Positions 7,788-18,013 of a DNA stretch of 64,000 bases are shown one piece after another (positions within the stretch are counted from its first letter, which is position 1; each line of letters starts with the position of its first letter). This stretch comes from an uncultured Bacteroidota bacterium (GTDB lineage: Bacteria > Bacteroidota > Bacteroidia > NS11-12g > UBA9320). The notes under the pieces were generated by a model. It saw only the letters and a program-made list of their open reading frames with translations. It was not told where the DNA came from and made no database searches. The stretch is from positions 62,001 to 126,000 of the forward strand of contig CAKZLB010000032.1 in the NCBI GenBank assembly GCA_937124965.1. The letters run 5' to 3'. A program made the position numbers and the translations under genes.

Positions 7788-10700
7788 ATGAAAAAAACAT
7801 TAATTACATTAGTGCTCTTGGCACTGAGTTTACTTGGAATCGCACAAGATTTAGACAGTCTAAATCAAAACAAGTATTGGGTATACCGAGACCGCTTTAA
7901 AAAGCACTTTACACACATTGGAGGTATTCGACCAGGAGAGTCACTTCCTATGGATGTAATACGACGAAATCTTAATTGCGGTGACTTTAGCGGCGATCGC
8001 ATAGAATCAGGAGATGTAATGGCTGCAATGGGTGAATATTTGGGTGTGCTTGCAACAGAATACTACCTACTAAACCAAACAGACAATTACGAAGCCTTAG
8101 AAGCGTGTAAACATGAGCTTTATTATGCTATTTCGGCAATAAACAAAGTAGATGAGTTTGCTGAAATATTTTTTGACCCGTTATTAAATTCTCCAGATAC
8201 AAAAGGTTTTTTTGTAAGAGACAACATCCCTGAAGACTATTACCAGTATTGGGAAGAAACAGATAACATACGATTTCATGGTGCACATGCAACTAGTGGG
8301 TTTGTTCCAGACTCTATCCTAGTAACAAGTAATAATTCTATCAATTACCAAAATGGCAGTCCATGGCTTTGGGCAAACGACCGATTTGCTATGAAAGCTA
8401 CAGACAATCCAAGTTATCAAGGTACACCGTGGTTTGGTTTGCACGCATATAAACATGATCAATGTCCAACTGTTCGAACTTTAGCAGAAACAATGGCTGA
8501 TGAGAATCTCAGGGTAAGTAACGAGATGAGTCAAGATCATGCATTAGGAATTTTACTCGGGATAAAATTTATTAAATCATATATCAATGATGAAACCCTA
8601 TTTATTCAACCTACTGCAAATGACTCTGGCATGTGGGTTATGGCCGAAACGAGACTTATTGCAGACCGAATAATGACTCACTTAGCTAAAAACAAAATAA
8701 CAAATCAAGAGTTTACATTTCCCATTAGAGTTAAGGATGACGACGGAAATTCTACAACAAAAGGTCTAATAGAAATTAATTTTAATGAAGCCAATTATAT
8801 TATAATGAATCCTGTAACTGGTCTTCCTGTGGATAGAGGATGGGAAGCATTTGCGATGTCACATGGATACAGGAAGCTTGGGCAAGATCTAACCGGATTA
8901 TACTACCCGCCAGCCACCATTGATGTTAAGTCAATTCACAAGAAGAATAACTCAGGAGGTGGTAACGGGGTACTGAATTGGCTAATAAATAGACTTATCG
9001 ATATAAACGACATCTCTAAACTAGATAGTCTTAAGCTCAAGGCTATATGGGACACAATACCATATTTAGCTGCGAATACTTCAATAGTTAACGATGTTAA
9101 TATGCAGATGGTTTTGCGCCTAGGTGCAGCAACAGGATTATGGACTCATCAGCAGTTTCTAACTATGGCAGAAACACAAAATTTTCCATGGTTTGAGTTG
9201 ATGTACGCAAATTTGAATTCAAAGACCCCATTACTATCTAAACAGTTCTATGATAGTCTTTTAAACCAAGCGGCTTGTGAAGGTGTTTCCAAATGGGATT
9301 TAATCGAACAATATGACACCCAGTTTGATTTAAACGGACAAATAACCTCAATTGATACATCGCTATTTCAACCTCATGCACCATTCAATAAATCAAGTAT
9401 TTTTTCCCTACCAAACAGAAATTATAATTCTCAAGCTTGGATAGATGGCGACTTTAATGGTCTTGATTATATGTTATTGCACAATCTATTTAGAATTTCT
9501 TTTGCTAATGACATTGAGAAACCTGCAATAGCCCAAGGATGCCCGTGTAAAAGTACTGTTAATGAGGGACTCACTGTAGTTAGTGGTGACACACTAAAAT
9601 CTATCGCTCGATTCCCAGAATACAGAAAAATCAACATACGAGTTCCAGAATTTATCACTCATGATATGAGAATTGTGAGCGATGGCGTTCTATTCCCAAA
9701 AGGAGATTTAACAATATGCAAGGGATTGGTACGACTTGCAACAAGAGGTAAAATACAAATCAACACTATTGATAAATCTAGGCCTAAGGAGCTGAGAATT
9801 AATAGTGGAGGGGTCTTAGAGCTAAGACCTAATTCGACTTTACAATTAGACACTTTTAGCAAAGTAATTATCGAACCAGGAGGGGTGCTTAGAATATTTG
9901 CAGGTAGTTCAATAATCCTCGATAAGGGAGCAGTTTTAGAAATTAATGGAACCTTAGAACTTATGCATAGCGCCACTTTATCTCCATCATCTGGTTCTTT
10001 TGGATTAGGTTACGTTAAAATGTCAAACAATGGCGCTAATAGTTCTTTTGCCCGTGCAGAAATTATTGGAAGGCCTTATTCAACTATAAACCTTTTCAGC
10101 GCATATCAAGGATTCAAAATCTTAGAAATAAACGGAACCGAAGCAGTAACATTTCCTAAAGAGGTTGAGGTCTCATTAACATCTGGAAAGACAACTCTTG
10201 GCGACGGCAGTGCACTTATCGTTGAAGGCAAACTAACCGTAGCAGACATGGACTTTGATGCTGAAAATGCAAATCAACCTTACGGTTATGGATTAGTGAC
10301 CGTCGGACAAAAAGATATAGAAATCATCCGAAGTACTTTTAAAAATGGGAAAGTTGGAATTGCTTGCCATAATTATTTAAATGGGAATACACCTAAAATT
10401 GACCAAATTGAAATGGAAAACATGGATGTTGGCGTATACTCTCAAGGACTTGGGTTTGAGATACAAGGTGAATTTGACAATTGTAACGAAGGTGTCTACC
10501 TTGTGAAACCCAGTATTCCTGGAGAAATTCACAATTCTCGGATAGAAAATGGAGGAAACGGTATTGTTTACGACGCACAGTCTACTGGAAGCATGCGGAT
10601 CAGATACGGGACAATAAAGGACAACCAAGCTTTTGGGGTTTATGGAATGAATGGAAGTATCCTTCTAGAATGCTCACAATTCAATTCAAACGGAGATGCC

Positions 10701-12032
10701 ATATACCTTCAACACAACCCATTTGTTTCCGTAAATGAAAATCAAAAAGCCGGAGGTAACATTTTTCAAAACAATACTACTAGTGTCATTAATTGCGATG
10801 CAGGGGCCTTTCAACTAGACCTAGTGAATGGTCACAGTGCGTTTAAAAACAATACACAACTATTTGATGGATATTTAATGAACCACTCTGGACTTTTAAC
10901 ACCTGCCCCTCCTACCAACAAGTATAGGCTCGCATCCTCTTATAATTACTGGGATATATTTGTTCCATATCAATATGACTTAAAATACATTGTTGGGACC
11001 GCAGGTAAAATTAACGCTGCTTCCGTAAGCTTGGAACACCAAAATCACTTTACCAGTGAATCAACTTTGTATACTAAGCAAACGAGTCTTTGTCCAAGCT
11101 ATAGTTCAGGTGCTGGTAGCTTCGCAATGACTGGCGCTGGAGCAATGTTAATCGATACTGACAATCAAGATATTACAAATCCATATTATGTCAATGCAAC
11201 GCTAGGTGATGTGTTTGAAAACATTAATGACGTGATGTATTACCAAAACAACTGTTTAGAAGCTTATTATCGAGCAAAAAGCGTATTTGACTACAATTTG
11301 GCTACACTAAGTCATTTTGACGAATACGTGCTTTCAAGGGTTTATCGTACAATGATGGAAGGGTATGGTGAGTTATTCTACGATGACAACATACTTGTTG
11401 ATAAAAATGGAATTACGACGGAGTTATTGGGGACACTTGAAGATTTACAGACTTTAGGTTTGAACCCAGCGGATTCATTTTGGCGCACTATGAATGTGCC
11501 AATTTGTATGGATATTGCTGAGGTACATCGAATGAATAATAGACGTGATACTGCTATAATGGTACTTTCTGACAAGCGAGCGTCAGTGTTTGACAATGAA
11601 ATTTTACAGAATATCGATAATTTTATTTGCGTGATTTCTGCTGAAAAGGATTTGATGGATGGAATAATACAAATCACAGATATGCAAGGTTATGAGTGCT
11701 ATAACCCCGAATACCAAAATGCTGCACCTTTTGCCCCAATAAATAAAGATAAAATAAAAGAGGAAGCTCCACAAATAGATTGGGCACCTCAACCAAATCC
11801 AGCGAAAACAGATGTAGATATTTATTTTAACTTGAAAACACGAAGGTTTGTTGAGATCGAAGTTTATAATATACTCGGACATAAAATTGCTAGCAAACCA
11901 AGAGCACAATTTAAGACGGGTGTTAACACTATAACATTCGATGTGGAAGACTGGCCGACAGGAGTCTACTTCGTAAAATTCAATTATGACTCATTCTCAG
12001 ACTCAAAAAGGCTATTAATAAAACATGATTAA
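7788..12032 (+). CDS. Large T9SS-exported protein with a beta-helix-like region
   Basis: A 1414-aa secreted protein. It has a signal peptide (MKKTLITLVLLALSLLGIAQ), about 600 residues of unrecognised, Trp/Tyr-rich sequence, then a repetitive region (about residues 630-1080) with Gly/Asn-rich turns, typical of right-handed parallel beta-helices (pectate-lyase-like). It ends with a type A T9SS sorting domain (PQPNPAKTDVDIYF ... GVYFVKFN ... SKRLLIKHD). It should be exported and attached to, or released from, the cell surface. No catalytic motif for polysaccharide cleavage can be named, so adhesin or structural roles remain open. A strong terminator follows. Confidence 0.85.
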   Translation: MKKTLITLVLLALSLLGIAQDLDSLNQNKYWVYRDRFKKHFTHIGGIRPGESLPMDVIRRNLNCGDFSGDRIESGDVMAAMGEYLGVLATEYYLLNQTDNYEALEACKHELYYAISAINKVDEFAEIFFDPLLNSPDTKGFFVRDNIPEDYYQYWEETDNIRFHGAHATSGFVPDSILVTSNNSINYQNGSPWLWANDRFAMKATDNPSYQGTPWFGLHAYKHDQCPTVRTLAETMADENLRVSNEMSQDHALGILLGIKFIKSYINDETLFIQPTANDSGMWVMAETRLIADRIMTHLAKNKITNQEFTFPIRVKDDDGNSTTKGLIEINFNEANYIIMNPVTGLPVDRGWEAFAMSHGYRKLGQDLTGLYYPPATIDVKSIHKKNNSGGGNGVLNWLINRLIDINDISKLDSLKLKAIWDTIPYLAANTSIVNDVNMQMVLRLGAATGLWTHQQFLTMAETQNFPWFELMYANLNSKTPLLSKQFYDSLLNQAACEGVSKWDLIEQYDTQFDLNGQITSIDTSLFQPHAPFNKSSIFSLPNRNYNSQAWIDGDFNGLDYMLLHNLFRISFANDIEKPAIAQGCPCKSTVNEGLTVVSGDTLKSIARFPEYRKINIRVPEFITHDMRIVSDGVLFPKGDLTICKGLVRLATRGKIQINTIDKSRPKELRINSGGVLELRPNSTLQLDTFSKVIIEPGGVLRIFAGSSIILDKGAVLEINGTLELMHSATLSPSSGSFGLGYVKMSNNGANSSFARAEIIGRPYSTINLFSAYQGFKILEINGTEAVTFPKEVEVSLTSGKTTLGDGSALIVEGKLTVADMDFDAENANQPYGYGLVTVGQKDIEIIRSTFKNGKVGIACHNYLNGNTPKIDQIEMENMDVGVYSQGLGFEIQGEFDNCNEGVYLVKPSIPGEIHNSRIENGGNGIVYDAQSTGSMRIRYGTIKDNQAFGVYGMNGSILLECSQFNSNGDAIYLQHNPFVSVNENQKAGGNIFQNNTTSVINCDAGAFQLDLVNGHSAFKNNTQLFDGYLMNHSGLLTPAPPTNKYRLASSYNYWDIFVPYQYDLKYIVGTAGKINAASVSLEHQNHFTSESTLYTKQTSLCPSYSSGAGSFAMTGAGAMLIDTDNQDITNPYYVNATLGDVFENINDVMYYQNNCLEAYYRAKSVFDYNLATLSHFDEYVLSRVYRTMMEGYGELFYDDNILVDKNGITTELLGTLEDLQTLGLNPADSFWRTMNVPICMDIAEVHRMNNRRDTAIMVLSDKRASVFDNEILQNIDNFICVISAEKDLMDGIIQITDMQGYECYNPEYQNAAPFAPINKDKIKEEAPQIDWAPQPNPAKTDVDIYFNLKTRRFVEIEVYNILGHKIASKPRAQFKTGVNTITFDVEDWPTGVYFVKFNYDSFSDSKRLLIKHD

Positions 12033-12149: not shown

Positions 12150-12854
12150 ATGCAGGAACAACTCTTATGCGATGCTAAAATTTCAAAACTCTTCTTTGAA
12201 GCTGTTAACCTTCAACATAGTGTGTTGAACAGCTACCATCATCGTTTAATTGGTCCTAGATTCGTTGGTCGCATAAAACTCAAAAAGGCGATTTCGTTGC
12301 TTCATCAATGCGTAAAACGGCAAGATGAGCTGTGGTCAGCACATTTTTTACTCGGGAAAATTCACCAAACACTAGAAAACCACGTTCTTGCTCTTGAGCA
12401 TTTTTACCTTGCGGAAAATCTAACAACTCCCAAAGCATATTTGTATTCGGAAATTGCCTTTTCGATGCTGTATAAAGATGACGATGATTTATCTCCTGTT
12501 TTAAATTATTCAGAAAATGCAATGCACCTTGAGCCGAATAATATCGAATCCCATCAATATCACGCTTTATTTTGCATTTTGAATGATGATACAACAAGCG
12601 CACGTAAAACATTGGAAATAGCGTATGCTTTGGATGAGTCAAATAAACTAACTAAAACCATTTCAGGGGTAATTTTAACTTATGAAGAAGGGAAAGCTTA
12701 TCGTCCTAATCACTACGAGTTATTCGATCGGATGCCATATTTGGTTCCTACCAAAAAAAATAAAAATGATTGGTTTGTTTTAGAAAAATTTCCGGAAGAA
12801 GTCACAAAACAGAGGGACAATAAAAAAGGTGGCCCATTTAGTTTTGATATTTAA
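12150..12854 (+). CDS. Tetratricopeptide-repeat protein
   Basis: A 234-aa soluble protein built of TPR-like helix pairs: LKKAISLLHQCVKRQDELWSAHFLLGKIHQTLENHVLALEHFYLAENL, then repeats including MHLEPNNIESHQYHALFCILNDDTTSARKTLEIAYALD. No signal peptide. TPRs mediate protein-protein contacts; the partner is not evident. It is transcribed from its own promoter between a terminator and a convergent operon; its stop adjoins the stop of the 160-aa membrane protein at 12855. Confidence 0.75.
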   Translation: MQEQLLCDAKISKLFFEAVNLQHSVLNSYHHRLIGPRFVGRIKLKKAISLLHQCVKRQDELWSAHFLLGKIHQTLENHVLALEHFYLAENLTTPKAYLYSEIAFSMLYKDDDDLSPVLNYSENAMHLEPNNIESHQYHALFCILNDDTTSARKTLEIAYALDESNKLTKTISGVILTYEEGKAYRPNHYELFDRMPYLVPTKKNKNDWFVLEKFPEEVTKQRDNKKGGPFSFDI

Positions 12855-13337
12855 TCAATGGAAAGTTTTAACACCCATAGAAGGTATCATAGATGCAAGA
12901 TAATCTCGGAAAGGATAATATGCCATTCCAGCAAACACAACAGCTAGTAACACCATTCCTAATAACATACTTCTATTTTCTGACGCTTCATCATTGTGCT
13001 CTAAACCATTGTAAAATACATTGTCAGCTAACAAAATGAGCCAAGTTCCCACAACCGTATACACGAAGTGAATGGCAATCATTAAAGCCAATTTCCCCAT
13101 CATAGCGTCTAACGACAGCTCCATAGAATCGGCAACGGTATGCAAATCCCAGAATGCTTGTCCGAGTGGAATTAACAAAAGCGCCGGTAGAGTGAGTAAT
13201 ACTGTCATTTGTTCGTGTTTTCCTTTTAAGTTGCCCAGTGGCAATGAGTTGGTTCGATTGATGATTCTTCGAAGAACTCCTCCAAGGAAGCCTAAGTAAA
13301 TAAAGATGGCTAAATAGCCTAAAATCGTTGCTACCAT
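12855..13337 (-). CDS. Small multi-pass membrane protein, last gene of the DUF4407 cluster
   Basis: A 160-aa integral membrane protein with about four hydrophobic segments (starting ILGYLAIFIYLGFLGGVL; then LLTLPALLLIPLGQAFW, LALMIAIHFVYTVVGTWLILLA and MLLGMVLLAVVFAGMAYY). It starts 4 bases after the stop of the transglutaminase-fold gene, so it is very likely co-transcribed and coupled to it. I recognise no family. Position suggests a membrane partner of the upstream proteins. Confidence 0.7.
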   Translation of the reverse strand: MVATILGYLAIFIYLGFLGGVLRRIINRTNSLPLGNLKGKHEQMTVLLTLPALLLIPLGQAFWDLHTVADSMELSLDAMMGKLALMIAIHFVYTVVGTWLILLADNVFYNGLEHNDEASENRSMLLGMVLLAVVFAGMAYYPFRDYLASMIPSMGVKTFH

Positions 13338-13341
13338 AGTG

Positions 13342-14889
13342 TTAATTAATTATTGATTTCCAATCGCTTTGAATTTTTAAGTCAGGGTGATATTCTCCAG
13401 GTCTATGCCCAGTTGAAGTTGTTTCCCAAGTAAAATATAATTTATCATCATAAATAAAGTGTTTACCACTCAAACCACGTAAGTTAACTGCTATTATTGA
13501 ATGCCTATACTTATCACTGTTTAGTATTCGTACATCATACCCATAATGGTTAAGTATTTTATAGACCAAAACTGTTCGAGTGTCACAATCTCCTTTTAAG
13601 GTATACATAAATTCCTCTGGTGAATACACACCTTGAAGAACAAACGGTTCACATGGTCTATTATCTTGTAAATATTTTCTAATAAAGTCATCATCATAGA
13701 TGCTCCAATCACATTCGTCTCGTAAAATTAGCACATACGGAATATCTTGAACCATAGATACAATCATTTCTGCAAACTCAACTGAGTCAAGGCCTCGTGT
13801 GTCTTTTATTTTTTCTAATTCCTCATAAATCAATCTGAACCCAATATCATTGGAACTTTCGCGATCGACTGTTAAGCTATCGTATACAACGTCAAATGGA
13901 TAGTAAGGCATTTTCTCATATCGCATTTTACGGGCAATTTGAACATTTCGAACGCTTTTTCGGAAAATTTTTAAATCAATACTGTAATTATTTCCGTCAT
14001 AGTCTTTCCATTCTCTATGATGCTGAACAAGTGTATCCTTACCATCTTTTATCCCATATTTATCGAGTGGAACTATTTCTTCGGTCGTAGATTCCCTATC
14101 ATTCAATTTATATTCAAATGGTTTCTCATCTGAATGGCTAATGATTTGATATATAAACAAAACAAAAAATAGGAGGCCAAAAATCAGTTTAATGCTACCG
14201 AAGAATTTCTCAAAAAAGCTTACGAACTGAGCACTAGATTCTAGCAACCAGTACATAATAAAAGCTAAACCAAGAACTGCGATAGCCCCTATTCCCCCAG
14301 TAAGGGCAACCAAGCTGATAAAAAACAGGATAAAAATAATGGTCAATACTCCACGGACAAAATCAAAACATCCAGGTGCTAGATCCTGTTCCGTGTTACC
14401 GCGTCTTTTAATGGGCGAAGTGTCTACTTTATTCGTGGGAGGGACAATTGGCACCCACTGTTCTTCCATTACGTGGTCCAACACATAACCAATTACTTCT
14501 CCTTCAATCGTCGAATAGGAAACAGTCCCGTGTTTTACTACCTTGGAAACTTTGGGAGGTTCTACAAATCGTATATCATCAAGACTTAATGAGTACGATT
14601 CATCTACCTCACTAGTTGTTACAGTAATCGGTTCCGTAAGTTTAAGGGAGACTCGAATTTGGGAAGAATCAAATTCAGTACACCATTTTTCTTGGTTTTC
14701 TTTTATTTCATTGGTAGTGTTTGAAACATTTAGTGCGGTATTAAAATTGGATTCGTTTCTATAAACAGAGCGAGAGCTTCCAAAGAGCCGTGCTAACGAT
14801 AATCGCGATTTGCATTTGGTAGAAATTCTACCTTTAATCCAAGTTTGGCGTTCTACTTTAACCAACTTTTTAATCAACCCTTCACTCAT
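13342..14889 (-). CDS. Membrane-anchored transglutaminase-fold protein
   Basis: A 515-aa protein with three parts. Residues 1-175 are a soluble, charged N-terminal region. About 178-251 hold two or three TM segments. About 260-515 form a C-terminal domain with a transglutaminase/papain-like catalytic set: Cys435 in LKGDCDTRT, His463 in YRHSIIAVN and Glu489 in TWETT, in the order and spacing of the transglutaminase-like superfamily. Bacterial members are usually proteases or peptide-processing enzymes; the substrate is unknown. It overlaps the upstream DUF4407-type gene by 8 bases and is followed after 4 bases by the 160-aa membrane protein. Which side of the membrane the catalytic domain faces is not clear from sequence alone. 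Confidence 0.75.
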   Translation of the reverse strand: MSEGLIKKLVKVERQTWIKGRISTKCKSRLSLARLFGSSRSVYRNESNFNTALNVSNTTNEIKENQEKWCTEFDSSQIRVSLKLTEPITVTTSEVDESYSLSLDDIRFVEPPKVSKVVKHGTVSYSTIEGEVIGYVLDHVMEEQWVPIVPPTNKVDTSPIKRRGNTEQDLAPGCFDFVRGVLTIIFILFFISLVALTGGIGAIAVLGLAFIMYWLLESSAQFVSFFEKFFGSIKLIFGLLFFVLFIYQIISHSDEKPFEYKLNDRESTTEEIVPLDKYGIKDGKDTLVQHHREWKDYDGNNYSIDLKIFRKSVRNVQIARKMRYEKMPYYPFDVVYDSLTVDRESSNDIGFRLIYEELEKIKDTRGLDSVEFAEMIVSMVQDIPYVLILRDECDWSIYDDDFIRKYLQDNRPCEPFVLQGVYSPEEFMYTLKGDCDTRTVLVYKILNHYGYDVRILNSDKYRHSIIAVNLRGLSGKHFIYDDKLYFTWETTSTGHRPGEYHPDLKIQSDWKSIIN

Positions 14890-15781
14890 GAATTCGCTTA
14901 ATGAAGTCTTCGTTGCCTAAAATAGGTGTAACTAATTGAATCCTTTTTTGATTGTATGGAGGGTCTTCATACCGCATTTGAAACGCTAGTTCCTCATCGG
15001 TAAATTGACTAATAGCCTTTTGATATTTCTCCAAGAATAGTTGGTACTCTTTACCAATAAGACTGGTTTGATTGCGAAGTCTAAGTTTATAATAATGCGA
15101 TTCTTCACCAATGCGCCTTTTGAGAATCGTTGGAAAACAAAACAGTAACACAACAAGTCCTGTAAAAAACCAGATACCATCCAAAGAGTTTATCGCCTGA
15201 ACAGTCCGAATATAATAGGCATTATTGAGAATAGAAGCACGGGCTTCCTCAACATCCTTAACTCTTTGGGCATCCCATTCTTCAGGACTTAAATCAGTAT
15301 AACCATGGCTGTAACTCTCGTTAATCGCCTTTTCCATAAACTGAATTTTGTCTTGTTTCAGAATGTAAATTTCAGCTTGAACTGCACTTTTAAATAGATA
15401 GTGTTCTATTGGTTTAGAAACAATCATCCCTAAAAATGCCATAGTACTTAATCGTATGTAAAAGGATATACGACTGCTTATTAGACTAATGGGTGGGACT
15501 AAAACATTTTTAGTAAGCGTGTACAAGAGCAACAAATACATATTGGAAACCAACCATGCGACAAATATTCCTATCCCCAATCCTACCCAAGGTGAGTGAA
15601 AAAACTCAGTGAACGCCTCAGTAATAGACACGAGGGTAAGAATAAAAATAAACAGCACTATACTGCCAATCGCTCGAATTAGCGATTTCGTTTTAGCAGA
15701 ACATTTCTCATAGGCAGTGTAATCTTCACCTGCTAATCGAACGAGCTGTTTTTCAATTCTACGCTTAATCTTCGTGGTCAT
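14882..15781 (-). CDS. DUF4407-like membrane protein (second copy)
   Basis: A 299-aa membrane protein with about four TM segments (IVLFIFILTLVSITEAF; GLGIGIFVAWLVSNMYLLLLY; a segment ending in GMIVSKPIEHYLF; WFFTGLVVLLFCFPTI) and a charged helical stretch between TM3 and TM4. The SKPIE motif matches SKPLE in the larger upstream protein, so the two are probably distant paralogues. It overlaps the genes on both sides (17 and 8 bases), a sign of tight co-translation. Function of DUF4407 proteins is unknown. Confidence 0.7.
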   Translation of the reverse strand: MTTKIKRRIEKQLVRLAGEDYTAYEKCSAKTKSLIRAIGSIVLFIFILTLVSITEAFTEFFHSPWVGLGIGIFVAWLVSNMYLLLLYTLTKNVLVPPISLISSRISFYIRLSTMAFLGMIVSKPIEHYLFKSAVQAEIYILKQDKIQFMEKAINESYSHGYTDLSPEEWDAQRVKDVEEARASILNNAYYIRTVQAINSLDGIWFFTGLVVLLFCFPTILKRRIGEESHYYKLRLRNQTSLIGKEYQLFLEKYQKAISQFTDEELAFQMRYEDPPYNQKRIQLVTPILGNEDFIKRIHE

Positions 15782-17021
15782 TGCGCTCTACGCTAATGTA
15801 TTGCTCTGGGTTTTGATCAATTAAGCTTCGTTGTTGTTGTTCAAACTTCTCAACGGCATATTTAGTGAGCCGTTTTTGAGCTTCTAGAAGTTCCTTCTTT
15901 TCTAGGTTAATGCGTTCCTTTTCTAAAAATCGGACCAGATGACGTTCCATTCCCTGTTTTTCTGGATGATCATCTTGGCTGTAATAGTCATATTCGATAT
16001 AGATGCCATCATTAGCTTTTACCAGCTCCTTTTCGTTCTCTAGCAAATAATCATATGGTGACTTAATAAGCATTAGTTTAAAGAAAATAGGTGTTAACTC
16101 AATCGCTAAAAAAAGCAACGTTATAAATAGCGAAATTGTCCAACCAGCAATCTCATGTGCCAGCTTTATACGCTGTAACAGACCGTCTAACCCAGCCGCA
16201 ATTACACCCGATTGTTCCACTTCCTCTTGTTTCTGTTTCTCATATTCCTCAATGTTGGCATACGCTTTATCAATAAGTGGTTGATACTTGCTACGCGCCA
16301 TTTCTCGGTCACGTTTCCTATCTAACATCAGCTGCTCTTTTCGCTTAGCATCTGGGCCATAGCCTGAAGACGATCCTCCTGGTTTTTCTGCTAATTCATC
16401 ATTAAAAATTTTCTCAGCTTTTGTATAAGCATCTTCCTTTTCGTCTATTTCGGATTGCCAATCTTTGATATTCGCCTCCTGACCAGCAATACGTTGTGCG
16501 TAAATCGAATCCAACGATTGAATGAACTCTCGTTGTTTTTCCATTTTCGCTGATTTCAACTCAACGTTTATTTCGTCCTGAAACATTCGAATTTCAAGCG
16601 GTTTTGAAATGGTCACTGCGATAATCGCCCCCATAATCAAACGTGGTAAAGCACTTTTAAACTCGCTCCATGTAATCGCTTCGGTACCATCACCTGTTCC
16701 AGTACTGGTCACAATAAATCGATCAATATTAAAAATCATCGCTCCCCATAATAATCCAGCTATTAGCGACATTACGGCTGTAGGGACATGGGTCTTGGCA
16801 ATAAACTCTTCTGAGTGAGGTGCAAAAATGGTATAGAAAGCGTATCCACCTGCCAAGCCGGCCATTATTCCTGTTGCCAAAATAATCCCACCTAATGTTA
16901 AATACTTCACTCGATCAGAATGTGTACTGCGCATTAGAATTTCTTCGTTGCCTCCAGCGGCCCACCATAGAAATTTTGTAGGCCTACTTACTCGAGTAAT
17001 TTTATTAGCGGTTGAGTTCAT
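15765..17021 (-). CDS. DUF4407-domain membrane protein
   Basis: A 418-aa membrane protein of the DUF4407 type. The hallmarks are WWAAGGNEEIL near the N-terminus, the GLLWGAMIFNIDRFIV segment and ITISKPLEIRMF, then a long charged coiled coil (about residues 160-280), a fourth TM segment (about 285-310) and a charged C-terminal tail. The topology suggests membrane hairpins holding an extended coiled coil on one side. The family is widespread in Bacteroidota and without assigned function. It is the largest member of the cluster and overlaps the downstream gene. Confidence 0.8.
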   Translation of the reverse strand: MNSTANKITRVSRPTKFLWWAAGGNEEILMRSTHSDRVKYLTLGGIILATGIMAGLAGGYAFYTIFAPHSEEFIAKTHVPTAVMSLIAGLLWGAMIFNIDRFIVTSTGTGDGTEAITWSEFKSALPRLIMGAIIAVTISKPLEIRMFQDEINVELKSAKMEKQREFIQSLDSIYAQRIAGQEANIKDWQSEIDEKEDAYTKAEKIFNDELAEKPGGSSSGYGPDAKRKEQLMLDRKRDREMARSKYQPLIDKAYANIEEYEKQKQEEVEQSGVIAAGLDGLLQRIKLAHEIAGWTISLFITLLFLAIELTPIFFKLMLIKSPYDYLLENEKELVKANDGIYIEYDYYSQDDHPEKQGMERHLVRFLEKERINLEKKELLEAQKRLTKYAVEKFEQQQRSLIDQNPEQYISVERNDHED

Positions 17022-17039
17022 ATGTTAAATTCTTGTGTT

Positions 17040-17666
17040 TTAGTTTTGAGGTATTTTAGTTTCTAATTCTAATTGACGACTTAGTGCTTTAAAGTCGGAA
17101 TAAGAGCCAGAATTAATGGTTGTGTTTCGCAACAAAATTGAATTCGCCTTAATTGGTCTACTTTTTATTGCATAAGATGGAAGATGAAAGTCTAATCCAT
17201 CCATATTTGACTTTTTAATCGTCAAGTTGTTAGTTTGAAGTTCAAACTTTTCATGAGGTTTTAAAACACTTTTTACTTGCGCGATTTGCAAGTATTCTAT
17301 GTCCAAAACCTGTTCAAATGTTTTCTGAGCCCCTACTACTTTCAAGGTTACCGTCTTCGTTTTATAGTCTTTATGCAGAAAAACTACGTTTGTTCTCGAT
17401 CGATATTTTTTGCCATTTATTTCAAAATAAAGTGCATTATCGACTTTGATGTACAACGTAAGAGGCAATCCTTTCATTGGAATTTCAATTGACCGAAAAT
17501 GTTTGATTGATGGTTTTTGACGAGTAATAAAAAAGAATAACCAACGCAAAGTAACGCGTACCCAAAACCAACAGGATTGAATTCGATACTTCGTTTTATG
17601 CACCGCACTATTTAACCATTTATCGTATGGCTTTTGAGTCGGTATGTAGTCGTAATTATTGATCAA
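17040..17666 (-). CDS. Hypothetical protein of the DUF4407 cluster
   Basis: A 208-aa basic protein with one aromatic, hydrophobic segment (about residues 32-50, CWFWVRVTLRWLFFFITR), which could be a membrane anchor. The rest looks beta-rich (LPLTLYIKVDNALYFEINGKKYRSR). It lies 18 bases before the DUF4407 gene and 9 bases after the Cys-rich peptide gene. No family is recognised. The context suggests it belongs to the same membrane assembly. Confidence 0.65.
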   Translation of the reverse strand: MINNYDYIPTQKPYDKWLNSAVHKTKYRIQSCWFWVRVTLRWLFFFITRQKPSIKHFRSIEIPMKGLPLTLYIKVDNALYFEINGKKYRSRTNVVFLHKDYKTKTVTLKVVGAQKTFEQVLDIEYLQIAQVKSVLKPHEKFELQTNNLTIKKSNMDGLDFHLPSYAIKSRPIKANSILLRNTTINSGSYSDFKALSRQLELETKIPQN

Positions 17667-17675
17667 CTGATTTAT

Positions 17676-17891
17676 TTAATCACATATTCCGCATGAGTTT
17701 CCGTCTTTACTACAATGCTTGCAATACTCACAAGTTTTGCATGCATTACACGGGTCTTTACCATAACATGTCGCCTCCTCTGAACAGCAAGTGGTCAGTT
17801 GTTTTTCTGGTTGTTCCTCGGACTTTATGTTTGGATAAATCACCAAAAAACTGCTTAACACAAAAAAAATGAGAAAAAGAATTGTTTTCAT
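17676..17891 (-). CDS. Small secreted Cys-rich protein
   Basis: A 71-aa protein with a hydrophobic N-terminal signal or anchor (MKTILFLIFFVLSSFLVIY) and a mature part of about 45 residues with ten Cys in CC, CxxC and spaced patterns (CNACKTCEYCKHC...CGIC). The pattern could bind metal or form several disulfides. It probably opens the minus-strand cluster, 9 bases before the 208-aa gene. No family is recognised. Confidence 0.6.
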   Translation of the reverse strand: MKTILFLIFFVLSSFLVIYPNIKSEEQPEKQLTTCCSEEATCYGKDPCNACKTCEYCKHCSKDGNSCGICD

Positions 17892-17982: not shown

Positions 17983-18013
17983 AAAAAAGCCCTCCGTTAA
18001 AACGAAAGGCTTT
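17983..18013 (-). terminator. Terminator of the propeller lipoprotein gene
   Basis: On the minus strand AAAGCCTTTCG pairs with CGGAGGGCTTT around TTTTAA, followed by T. It lies about 25 bases past the stop of the 18038-19162 gene. The A-rich opposite side may let it act weakly in the other direction too. Confidence 0.8.

Follow-up and report, generated by a model that had tools for sequence, protein, structure and literature searches.

The compact arrangement of six genes on one strand of a genomic fragment from an uncultured Bacteroidota bacterium (referred to here as the window, 64,000 nucleotides in total) raises the question of whether their products form a single envelope machine, as a sequence-only reading of the locus had proposed, and, if so, which of them belong to it and upon what it might act. 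The six open reading frames were confirmed on the minus strand between positions 12855 and 17891, and the close packing described by that reading, of at most 18 bases, is correct: neighboring frames overlap by 8 and 17 nucleotides or are separated by gaps of 4, 18 and 9 nucleotides. The genes, and the parts of their products discussed below, are as follows:

12855..13337, minus strand: g1, a 160-residue protein with four transmembrane (TM) helices, apparently a diverged DUF350-like member, which ends the module
13342..14889, minus strand: g2, a 515-residue protein comprising an X domain, a TM region and a transglutaminase (TG)-fold domain
14440..14889, minus strand: X domain of g2 (residues 1-150), beta-rich, predicted to be a cytosolic docking domain
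14128..14382, minus strand: hydrophobic region of g2 (residues 170-254), read as three TM helices
13345..14037, minus strand: transglutaminase/papain-like catalytic domain of g2 (residues 285-515), with Cys435, His463 and Glu489
14882..15781, minus strand: g3, a shorter DUF4407 paralogue lacking the long coiled coil
15765..17021, minus strand: g4, a DUF4407 protein with four TM helices and a coiled-coil hairpin
16191..16601, minus strand: coiled-coil hairpin of g4 (residues 141-277), two long helices in the model
17040..17666, minus strand: g5, which opens the conserved module and has a weakly hydrophobic, basic segment near residues 31-48
17676..17891, minus strand: g6, a 71-residue Cys-rich peptide, predicted to be exported, an occasional neighbor of the module

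Relatives of the locus were retrieved from GTDB using a DUF4407 alignment as the query (a GTDB scan with g3 alone gave no match), and the best 80 of 472, selected as the closest to g4, served as the sample of loci, 69 of which contained enough downstream sequence for the full module to be scored. Each of these 69 complete loci displays a second DUF4407 gene followed by a gene for a protein with the N-terminal X domain of g2; 57 of them encode a TG domain, g5 lies upstream of g4 in 77 of 78 loci, and 86% of 285 module junctions fall within 20 nucleotides. The module's gene order, which recurs in at least 57 loci besides the window, is far beyond chance, and g5-g4-g3-g2-g1 constitutes a genuine five-gene membrane system that recurs in the Bacteroidota rather than a local accident; the co-occurrence of its central genes, which the sequence-only reading had singled out as a check, is found across the phylum. 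The system is also rare, being present in 4 of 392 Bacteroidota genomes surveyed as against 118 with DUF4407 genes, most of which stand alone, and all four full-length TG genes in those 392 genomes are located inside the module. Literature searches returned no published account of the five-gene module, no functional report on DUF4407 (which was named only in lists), and no paper linking a J domain and a transglutaminase-like protein in Bacteroidetes. DUF350 and transglutaminase came up together in a single metagenome correlation paper.

The assignment of two genes to DUF4407, one with a long coiled coil, was correct: both exceed the Pfam cut-off of 31.3 bits for PF14362 (g4 with 253.1 bits, g3 with 53.3), a profile of 72 module members matches g3 with an E-value of 1.4e-70, and the model of g4 contains long helices at residues 141-211 and 223-277, predicted with high pLDDT. 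Residues N98, D100, R101, E143, E308 and K315 (g4 numbering), in or at the TM helices, are invariant. A PDB sequence search with the DUF4407 profile gave chance or coiled-coil matches only, and comparison of the g4 model with known structures gave no matches beyond coiled-coil and helical proteins (Z of at most 10, often with a large rmsd); no fold relative is claimed for g4 on the basis of such matches. The g5 gene is recovered (E 2.4e-14) by a profile built from the 77 genes that immediately precede g4 in relatives; the single hydrophobic segment attributed to its product is weak, with no segment above 1.5 on the Kyte-Doolittle scale and only 10 of 77 homologues passing 1.6.

The putative enzyme of the module is g2, in which the set of Cys435, His463 and Glu489 noted earlier occurs at exactly those positions and is intact in all 65 TG-bearing copies. 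The model of residues 285-515 displays pLDDT values above 90 across most of its length, and its best matches in VIA-align are LapG (Z 8.6), TglA (8.3) and PNGase (8.3); the top rows are dominated by these three, factor XIII and TG2, with pseudomurein endoisopeptidases also listed. The match to LapG is moderate, extending over 132 residues at an rmsd of 3.3 and 15% identity. With Foldseek nothing matched at E<=0.001, a PDB sequence search with the TG profile produced chance or coiled-coil matches only, and g2 has no Pfam match either to Transglut_core (PF01841, matched by one of 53 members, at E 0.012) or to BTLCP, the family of LapG, though LapG is structurally similar. The structural comparison of the model supports membership of the C-terminal domain in the transglutaminase/papain-like superfamily, with the fold shared by LapG, transglutaminases and PNGase, and makes it part of a TG-fold family that Pfam does not recognise.

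The region preceding that domain contains modelled helices at residues 174-196, 200-217 and 220-253 and Kyte-Doolittle hydrophobic segments at 170-220 and 225-254, from which we infer three TM helices within residues 170-254; a K/R-rich stretch precedes them. The X domain, common to all 69 complete loci, is also found in separate X-TM-OmpA/beta proteins of loci L015-L018 (E 2e-7 to 2e-6), including an X-TM scaffold bearing an OmpA domain in L015, and in approximately 15 relatives it is fused at its N-terminus to a J domain with an intact HPD motif. J domains act with cytosolic Hsp70 and OmpA domains bind peptidoglycan; these fusions, like the K/R-rich stretch, speak for a cytosolic X domain and a periplasmic TG domain, with the enzyme probably kept at the outer side of the inner membrane. 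It is from the fusions and the count of three TM helices that the TG domain has been oriented.

Further analysis of the module demonstrated that the TG domain and the last gene travel together: a DUF350-like gene closes the module in 57 of 57 TG loci and in none of 12 loci without a TG domain, and all four independent TG switches on the g4 tree are concordant with it (sign test on the four, p 0.125). In some loci the TG domain is swapped for TPR/DUF3761-like or small His/Cys modules. The four-TM topology previously described for g1 was borne out, and while g1 itself has no direct Pfam match, a profile built from the 57 DUF350-like proteins of the module matches part of it (E 1.5e-5), and relatives at the same position in L013 and L014 match DUF350 (PF03994, E 1e-11), which indirectly suggests that g1 belongs to the DUF350-like family as a diverged member.

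We consider it moderately likely that these five genes encode one inner-membrane complex that holds a TG-fold cysteine enzyme at the inner membrane, under cytosolic control, and acts on an envelope substrate. Gene order suggests that the products associate; the two DUF4407 paralogues would form the membrane core, one of them extending its long coiled-coil hairpin from the membrane, presumably into the periplasm. The g2 protein would serve as an adaptor: its cytosolic X domain would bind the core, and its TM helices would connect this domain to an exchangeable working domain in the periplasm, which in the window and most relatives would be the TG-fold enzyme with its intact Cys-His-Glu set, always accompanied by the four-TM DUF350-like g1. 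Such a complex would most likely tether the enzyme at the membrane and control it through a cytosolic signal, the enzyme cleaving or transferring an amide bond in a protein or a peptidoglycan peptide.

The earlier proposal of a single envelope machine is upheld in that the DUF4407 pair, the TG-fold protein and the four-TM protein co-occur across the Bacteroidota with the catalytic set conserved, and neither of the two findings named as refuting it, a gene order unique to this locus or a triad not kept in homologues, was obtained; its further suggestion, that g6 is a substrate or ligand of the enzyme, did not survive and is now very unlikely. The g6 product is, as described, Cys-rich with a hydrophobic N-terminal segment, and its family motif (CxGxxxCxACxxCxxCxxCxxxGxxCGxC) aligns with four relatives. 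The only convincing copy in its genome, g6 lies just 9 nucleotides from g5, and the surroundings of the module are strongly enriched in similar genes (5 strict cases where 0.015 were expected). Such neighbors occur, however, in no more than 7 of the 80 loci. Three of the seven (L026, L037 and L063) lack both the TG domain and DUF350, and in L037 and L063 the g6-like gene immediately precedes g5, just as it does here. Of 14 g6-like loci from other genomes, none has the module within approximately 9 kb. Eight of those 14 lie in a type of regulator-headed island that also carries the module, and the enrichment is attributed to shared island cargo; as a TG substrate, g6 is rejected, its relatives usually lacking a TG partner. 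An ion-driven motor resembling MotAB or ZorAB, built of DUF4407 and an OmpA-type partner, might be imagined from the invariant charged residues in the DUF4407 TM helices and from a match of the L014 OmpA protein to ZorB models (E 2e-11), but that match is to the OmpA domain itself, most modules, including that of the window, have no OmpA protein, and the acidic residue of MotB is absent from the TM helices of all eight OmpA-domain proteins, on which ground this extremely improbable reading was rejected.

Two further explanations are each unlikely, to a similar degree. The patchy spread of the module (4 of 392 genomes), the swappable C-terminal domains of g2-type proteins, the TPR-histidine kinase and LuxR regulator in 27 of 58 fully flanked loci, and the HSDR_N, SNase, DUF1508 or YidD-like genes in many flanked loci would suit a mobile conflict or defence system directed at phage or competing cells, with the TG domain or its replacements as effectors and cargo of variable islands. 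Yet PADLOC defence models gave a best match of E 0.015 on g5 and none on the other five genes, a plasmid collection searched with g4 and a phage collection searched with g2 gave no match, no toxin- or immunity-like gene pair was seen, and the genome of the window yielded neither an f3 nor an HSDR_N gene. The other explanation, a more specific form of the membrane-tethered enzyme, makes g2 a LapG/TgpA-like envelope-homeostasis enzyme whose target is peptidoglycan or a surface adhesin, DUF4407 and DUF350 serving as a membrane-stress sensor. It is favored by LapG as the top structural match, by the listed pseudomurein endoisopeptidases, by OmpA-type proteins belonging to the module in L013, L014 and L097-L101, and by the recurrence of DUF350 (YjfL) in envelope-stress operons that also encode PspA partners (PMC11237479); it is opposed by the Transglut_core result, that family being of TgpA type, by the lack of any LapD-like receptor seen, and by the rarity of a module that is not universal.

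Beyond the membrane-tethered enzyme itself, we tentatively suggest a broader possibility, held with less confidence: an undescribed class of trans-membrane machine, in which the DUF4407 pair would be a universal socket for X-domain adaptors, the periplasmic end being interchangeable: either a cysteine amidase (with DUF350) or a non-enzymatic metal, TPR or OmpA module. The whole would be driven from the cytosolic side, through a J domain and Hsp70 in some species. The module provides a testable context for DUF4407, a family without assigned function, ties DUF350 to a specific enzyme domain, and points to a membrane adaptor whose outer working domain has been swapped in evolution. The operon is compact, and cultured Bacteroidota that carry it, such as Flavobacterium reichenbachii or members of Pedobacter or Mucilaginibacter, offer a way to its function.

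Among known systems, the DUF4407 proteins of PF14362 include g3 and g4, which pass its cut-off, and most in the Bacteroidota belong to genomes that lack the TG module. The operons with DUF350 (YjfL) in the PSP envelope-stress network resemble the module in that a small multi-TM DUF350 protein is encoded within a multi-gene membrane or stress operon; its companions there are PspA partners, spermidine synthase-like or ATP-grasp enzymes and DUF4178, with transglutaminase unmentioned (PMC11237479). TgpA (PA2873) of Pseudomonas aeruginosa, for which activity has been demonstrated in vitro, is an inner-membrane protein with a periplasmic TG-fold domain, as is predicted for g2, but matches PF01841 and has DUF3488 membrane helices, its TG domain preceding the last of six TM helices; in the parts of that account consulted, no DUF4407 or DUF350 partners were seen (PMC3507681). 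The g2 protein differs in its X domain, its C-terminal TG domain and its lack of a PF01841 match. LapG (BTLCP) shares with the g2 model its fold (Z 8.6) and, as predicted for g2, Cys-His-acid catalysis. It is a free periplasmic protease under LapD control, whereas g2 is predicted to be membrane-bound, uses Glu as the putative third catalytic residue, and is 15% identical to it.

The six open reading frames described by the sequence-only reading were recovered on the minus strand at the positions it gave: a Cys-rich peptide (g6), g5, two DUF4407 proteins (g4, g3), a protein comprising an N-terminal 'X' domain (residues 1-150), transmembrane helices and a transglutaminase-fold (TG) domain (g2), and a probable, diverged DUF350-like protein with four transmembrane helices (g1). 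A Pfam search of the six genes matched

15765-17021, minus strand: g4, DUF4407, 253 bits (cut-off 31.3)
14882-15781, minus strand: g3, DUF4407, 53 bits (cut-off 31.3)

and returned no significant match for g2, g1, g5 or g6. The 4.09 Mb Bacteroidota host genome contains no other DUF4407 genes. Because a terminator-like stretch, read by eye, lies at approximately 17983-18013 between g6 and its upstream neighbour, and the 3' end of g1 adjoins the stop of a convergent gene, the six genes look from their sequence like a single transcription unit. The stop codon directly abutting that of g1 belongs to a 234-residue protein (12150-12854, plus strand) with at most weak TPR-like matches, and just past the cluster (7788-12032, plus strand) lies the gene of a 1414-residue secreted protein, which carries a C-terminal sorting domain for type IX secretion.

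Relatives of g2 were found in a few genomes, of the same order as the host, in neighbourhoods containing the same genes. An alignment scan of GTDB with g4 returned 472 relatives. The 80 best of these were used, every one of them from Bacteroidota; downstream genes were counted in the 69 loci with at least 4.5 kb downstream. In all 69, g4 is followed by another DUF4407-type gene, and this in turn by one whose product has the X domain of g2; the TG domain is present in 57, and the DUF350-like gene in exactly those 57. Upstream, g5 precedes g4 in 77 of 78 loci, and 86% of 285 junctions in these g4-relative loci span at most 20 nt. Profiles of the module families matched g3 (E 1.4e-70), g5 (E 2.4e-14) and, over part of its length only, g1 (E 1.5e-5) of the window. 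Since the 80 loci were chosen for closeness to g4, an additional, unbiased sample of 392 Bacteroidota genomes was also analyzed, in which 118 encode DUF4407 above the cut-off and four a full-length g2-type protein, surrounded each time (window genome, G175, G360 and G148) by the complete g5-g4-g3-g2-g1 module. DUF4407 thus usually occurs without the module, which is a rare, patchy, accessory unit; its gene order is not confined to the window, recurring in at least 57 other loci.

The catalytic set proposed for g2 (Cys435, His463 and Glu489) proved to be conserved in homologues, being retained in 65 of 65 TG-bearing members. An AlphaFold2 model of g2 (pLDDT 81, and above 90 for most of residues 351-500) gave no Foldseek match in the PDB at E<=0.001; a slower structural aligner matched residues 285-515 to LapG (Z 8.6, 132 residues, rmsd 3.3), to TglA, PNGase, factor XIII and transglutaminase 2, and to the pseudomurein endoisopeptidases PeiW and PeiP (Z 6.8 and 6.7). 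While these Z values are moderate, nearly all of the match list represents one superfamily, and the assignment of the modelled region to the transglutaminase fold is therefore solid. Pfam Transglut_core matched only one of 53 g2-type members (E 0.012), so that the family, judged by sequence, is outside that curated model. More distant clusters (L015-L018) begin with a second, exported TG-fold-like gene (316-371 residues), and thus encode two TG-type proteins each.

A DnaJ model matched 13 of 53 TG proteins (best E 1.8e-25), and an HPD motif lies at residue 34-65, N-terminal to X, in about 15. The partner of J domains, Hsp70, is a cytosolic protein in bacteria, and a J domain fused ahead of X therefore suggests that X is cytosolic. 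Such J domains with intact HPD, on the N-terminus of membrane TG-fold proteins, were seen in Chitinophagaceae and Sphingobacteriaceae (L040:11216-13180, L044:11215-13200, L072:5818-7746 and approximately 12 more). In g2, a positively charged stretch precedes three hydrophobic helices, which, together with an OmpA fusion on the same scaffold, would place the TG domain outside the inner membrane. That fusion is found in L015, where a separate X-domain protein has an OmpA-like end; X is likewise a separate protein throughout L015-L018 (E 2e-7 to 2e-6), and L013, L014 and L097-L101 carry an additional OmpA-domain gene. The g4 model has four transmembrane helices and a hairpin at 141-277, with the invariant polar or charged residues N98, D100, R101, E143, E308 and K315; structure comparison of this model found no fold relative.

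Twelve of the 69 loci lack the TG domain: L073, and 11 in which the X-TM part is retained with a different outer end. A small His/Cys domain (VYICNG..YHL..CRGL..C..GRTLCGWED) was read in L058, L071, L080 and L085, and its presence in L057, L068 and L089 is presumed from their close kinship to these four; L025 and L026 have a TPR-like stretch and an end which, by eye, we take to be DUF3761-like, and L037 and L063 a TPR-like end. The His/Cys module (YHL..CRGL..C..TLCGWED) that replaces TG on the X-TM adaptor in L058, L071, L080 and L085 also exists on its own as an exported protein, f9 (for example L040:13698-13910), whose gene frequently neighbours SNase genes. The DUF350-like gene is likewise missing from all 12 TG-less loci (Fisher p 1e-13, ignoring kinship). 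The g4 tree contains four independent TG/DUF350 switches, all concordant. With four events a sign test has no way of becoming significant (p 0.125); the pattern of the coupling is strong, the number of events small.

The suggestion that g6 might be a substrate of the TG enzyme fared less well. The peptide belongs to a small exported family, whose genes occur near the module in five strict cases among the 80 loci, versus 0.015 expected by chance, and by a relaxed motif in L037 and L063, where the gene precedes g5 by 36-38 nt, an arrangement close to that of the window. Three of these seven loci (L026, L037 and L063) have no TG domain, and the module is absent within approximately 9 kb of all 14 g6-like loci taken from other genomes (in G175 it is some 20 kb away). 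Eight of the 14 are part of an island that opens with a divergent gene (f3) and the genes of a TPR histidine kinase and a LuxR-type regulator; such kinase and regulator genes adjoin 27 of the 58 DUF4407-TG loci that have complete flanks. Given the TG-less cases, the distant loci and the regulators common to both, shared island cargo accounts for the association better than enzyme-substrate pairing. The island recurs in Bacteroidota with or without the DUF4407-TG module (L040, L050, L054, L111-L115, L117, L119, L124 and others); f3 has a C-terminal CMxWSGDHY, and the variable small genes after the regulator encode HSDR_N alone, SNase, DUF1508, YidD-like proteins, His/Cys peptides, and Cys-rich plus SH3-like proteins. 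The window genome yielded neither an f3 nor an HSDR_N gene. What we take by eye to be an acyl-CoA thioesterase-like gene lies alongside the cluster in members of two families (L013:5083-5700, L016:12783-13334, L018:13286-13837), hinting at an old shared location.

The favoured mechanism is an inner-membrane complex in which the DUF4407 pair would dock the cytosolic X domain, which in turn would hold an exchangeable periplasmic working part. In the window that part would be a cysteine amidase, peptidase or transamidase, paired with the DUF350-like protein; it would be controlled from the cytosol and would act on a substrate in the envelope. Such a complex may serve envelope maintenance or conflict and defence; no PADLOC model gave a good match.

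A literature search covering neither preprints nor most subscription journals met DUF4407 only as a name in lists, and found no prior description of the gene combination, the X adaptor, the domain swapping or the J-domain fusions. Individual elements have known counterparts. TgpA has a membrane-held periplasmic TG domain (PMC3507681), an arrangement that g2 would share if its predicted placement is correct; and DUF350 is known from envelope-stress operons (PMC11237479).
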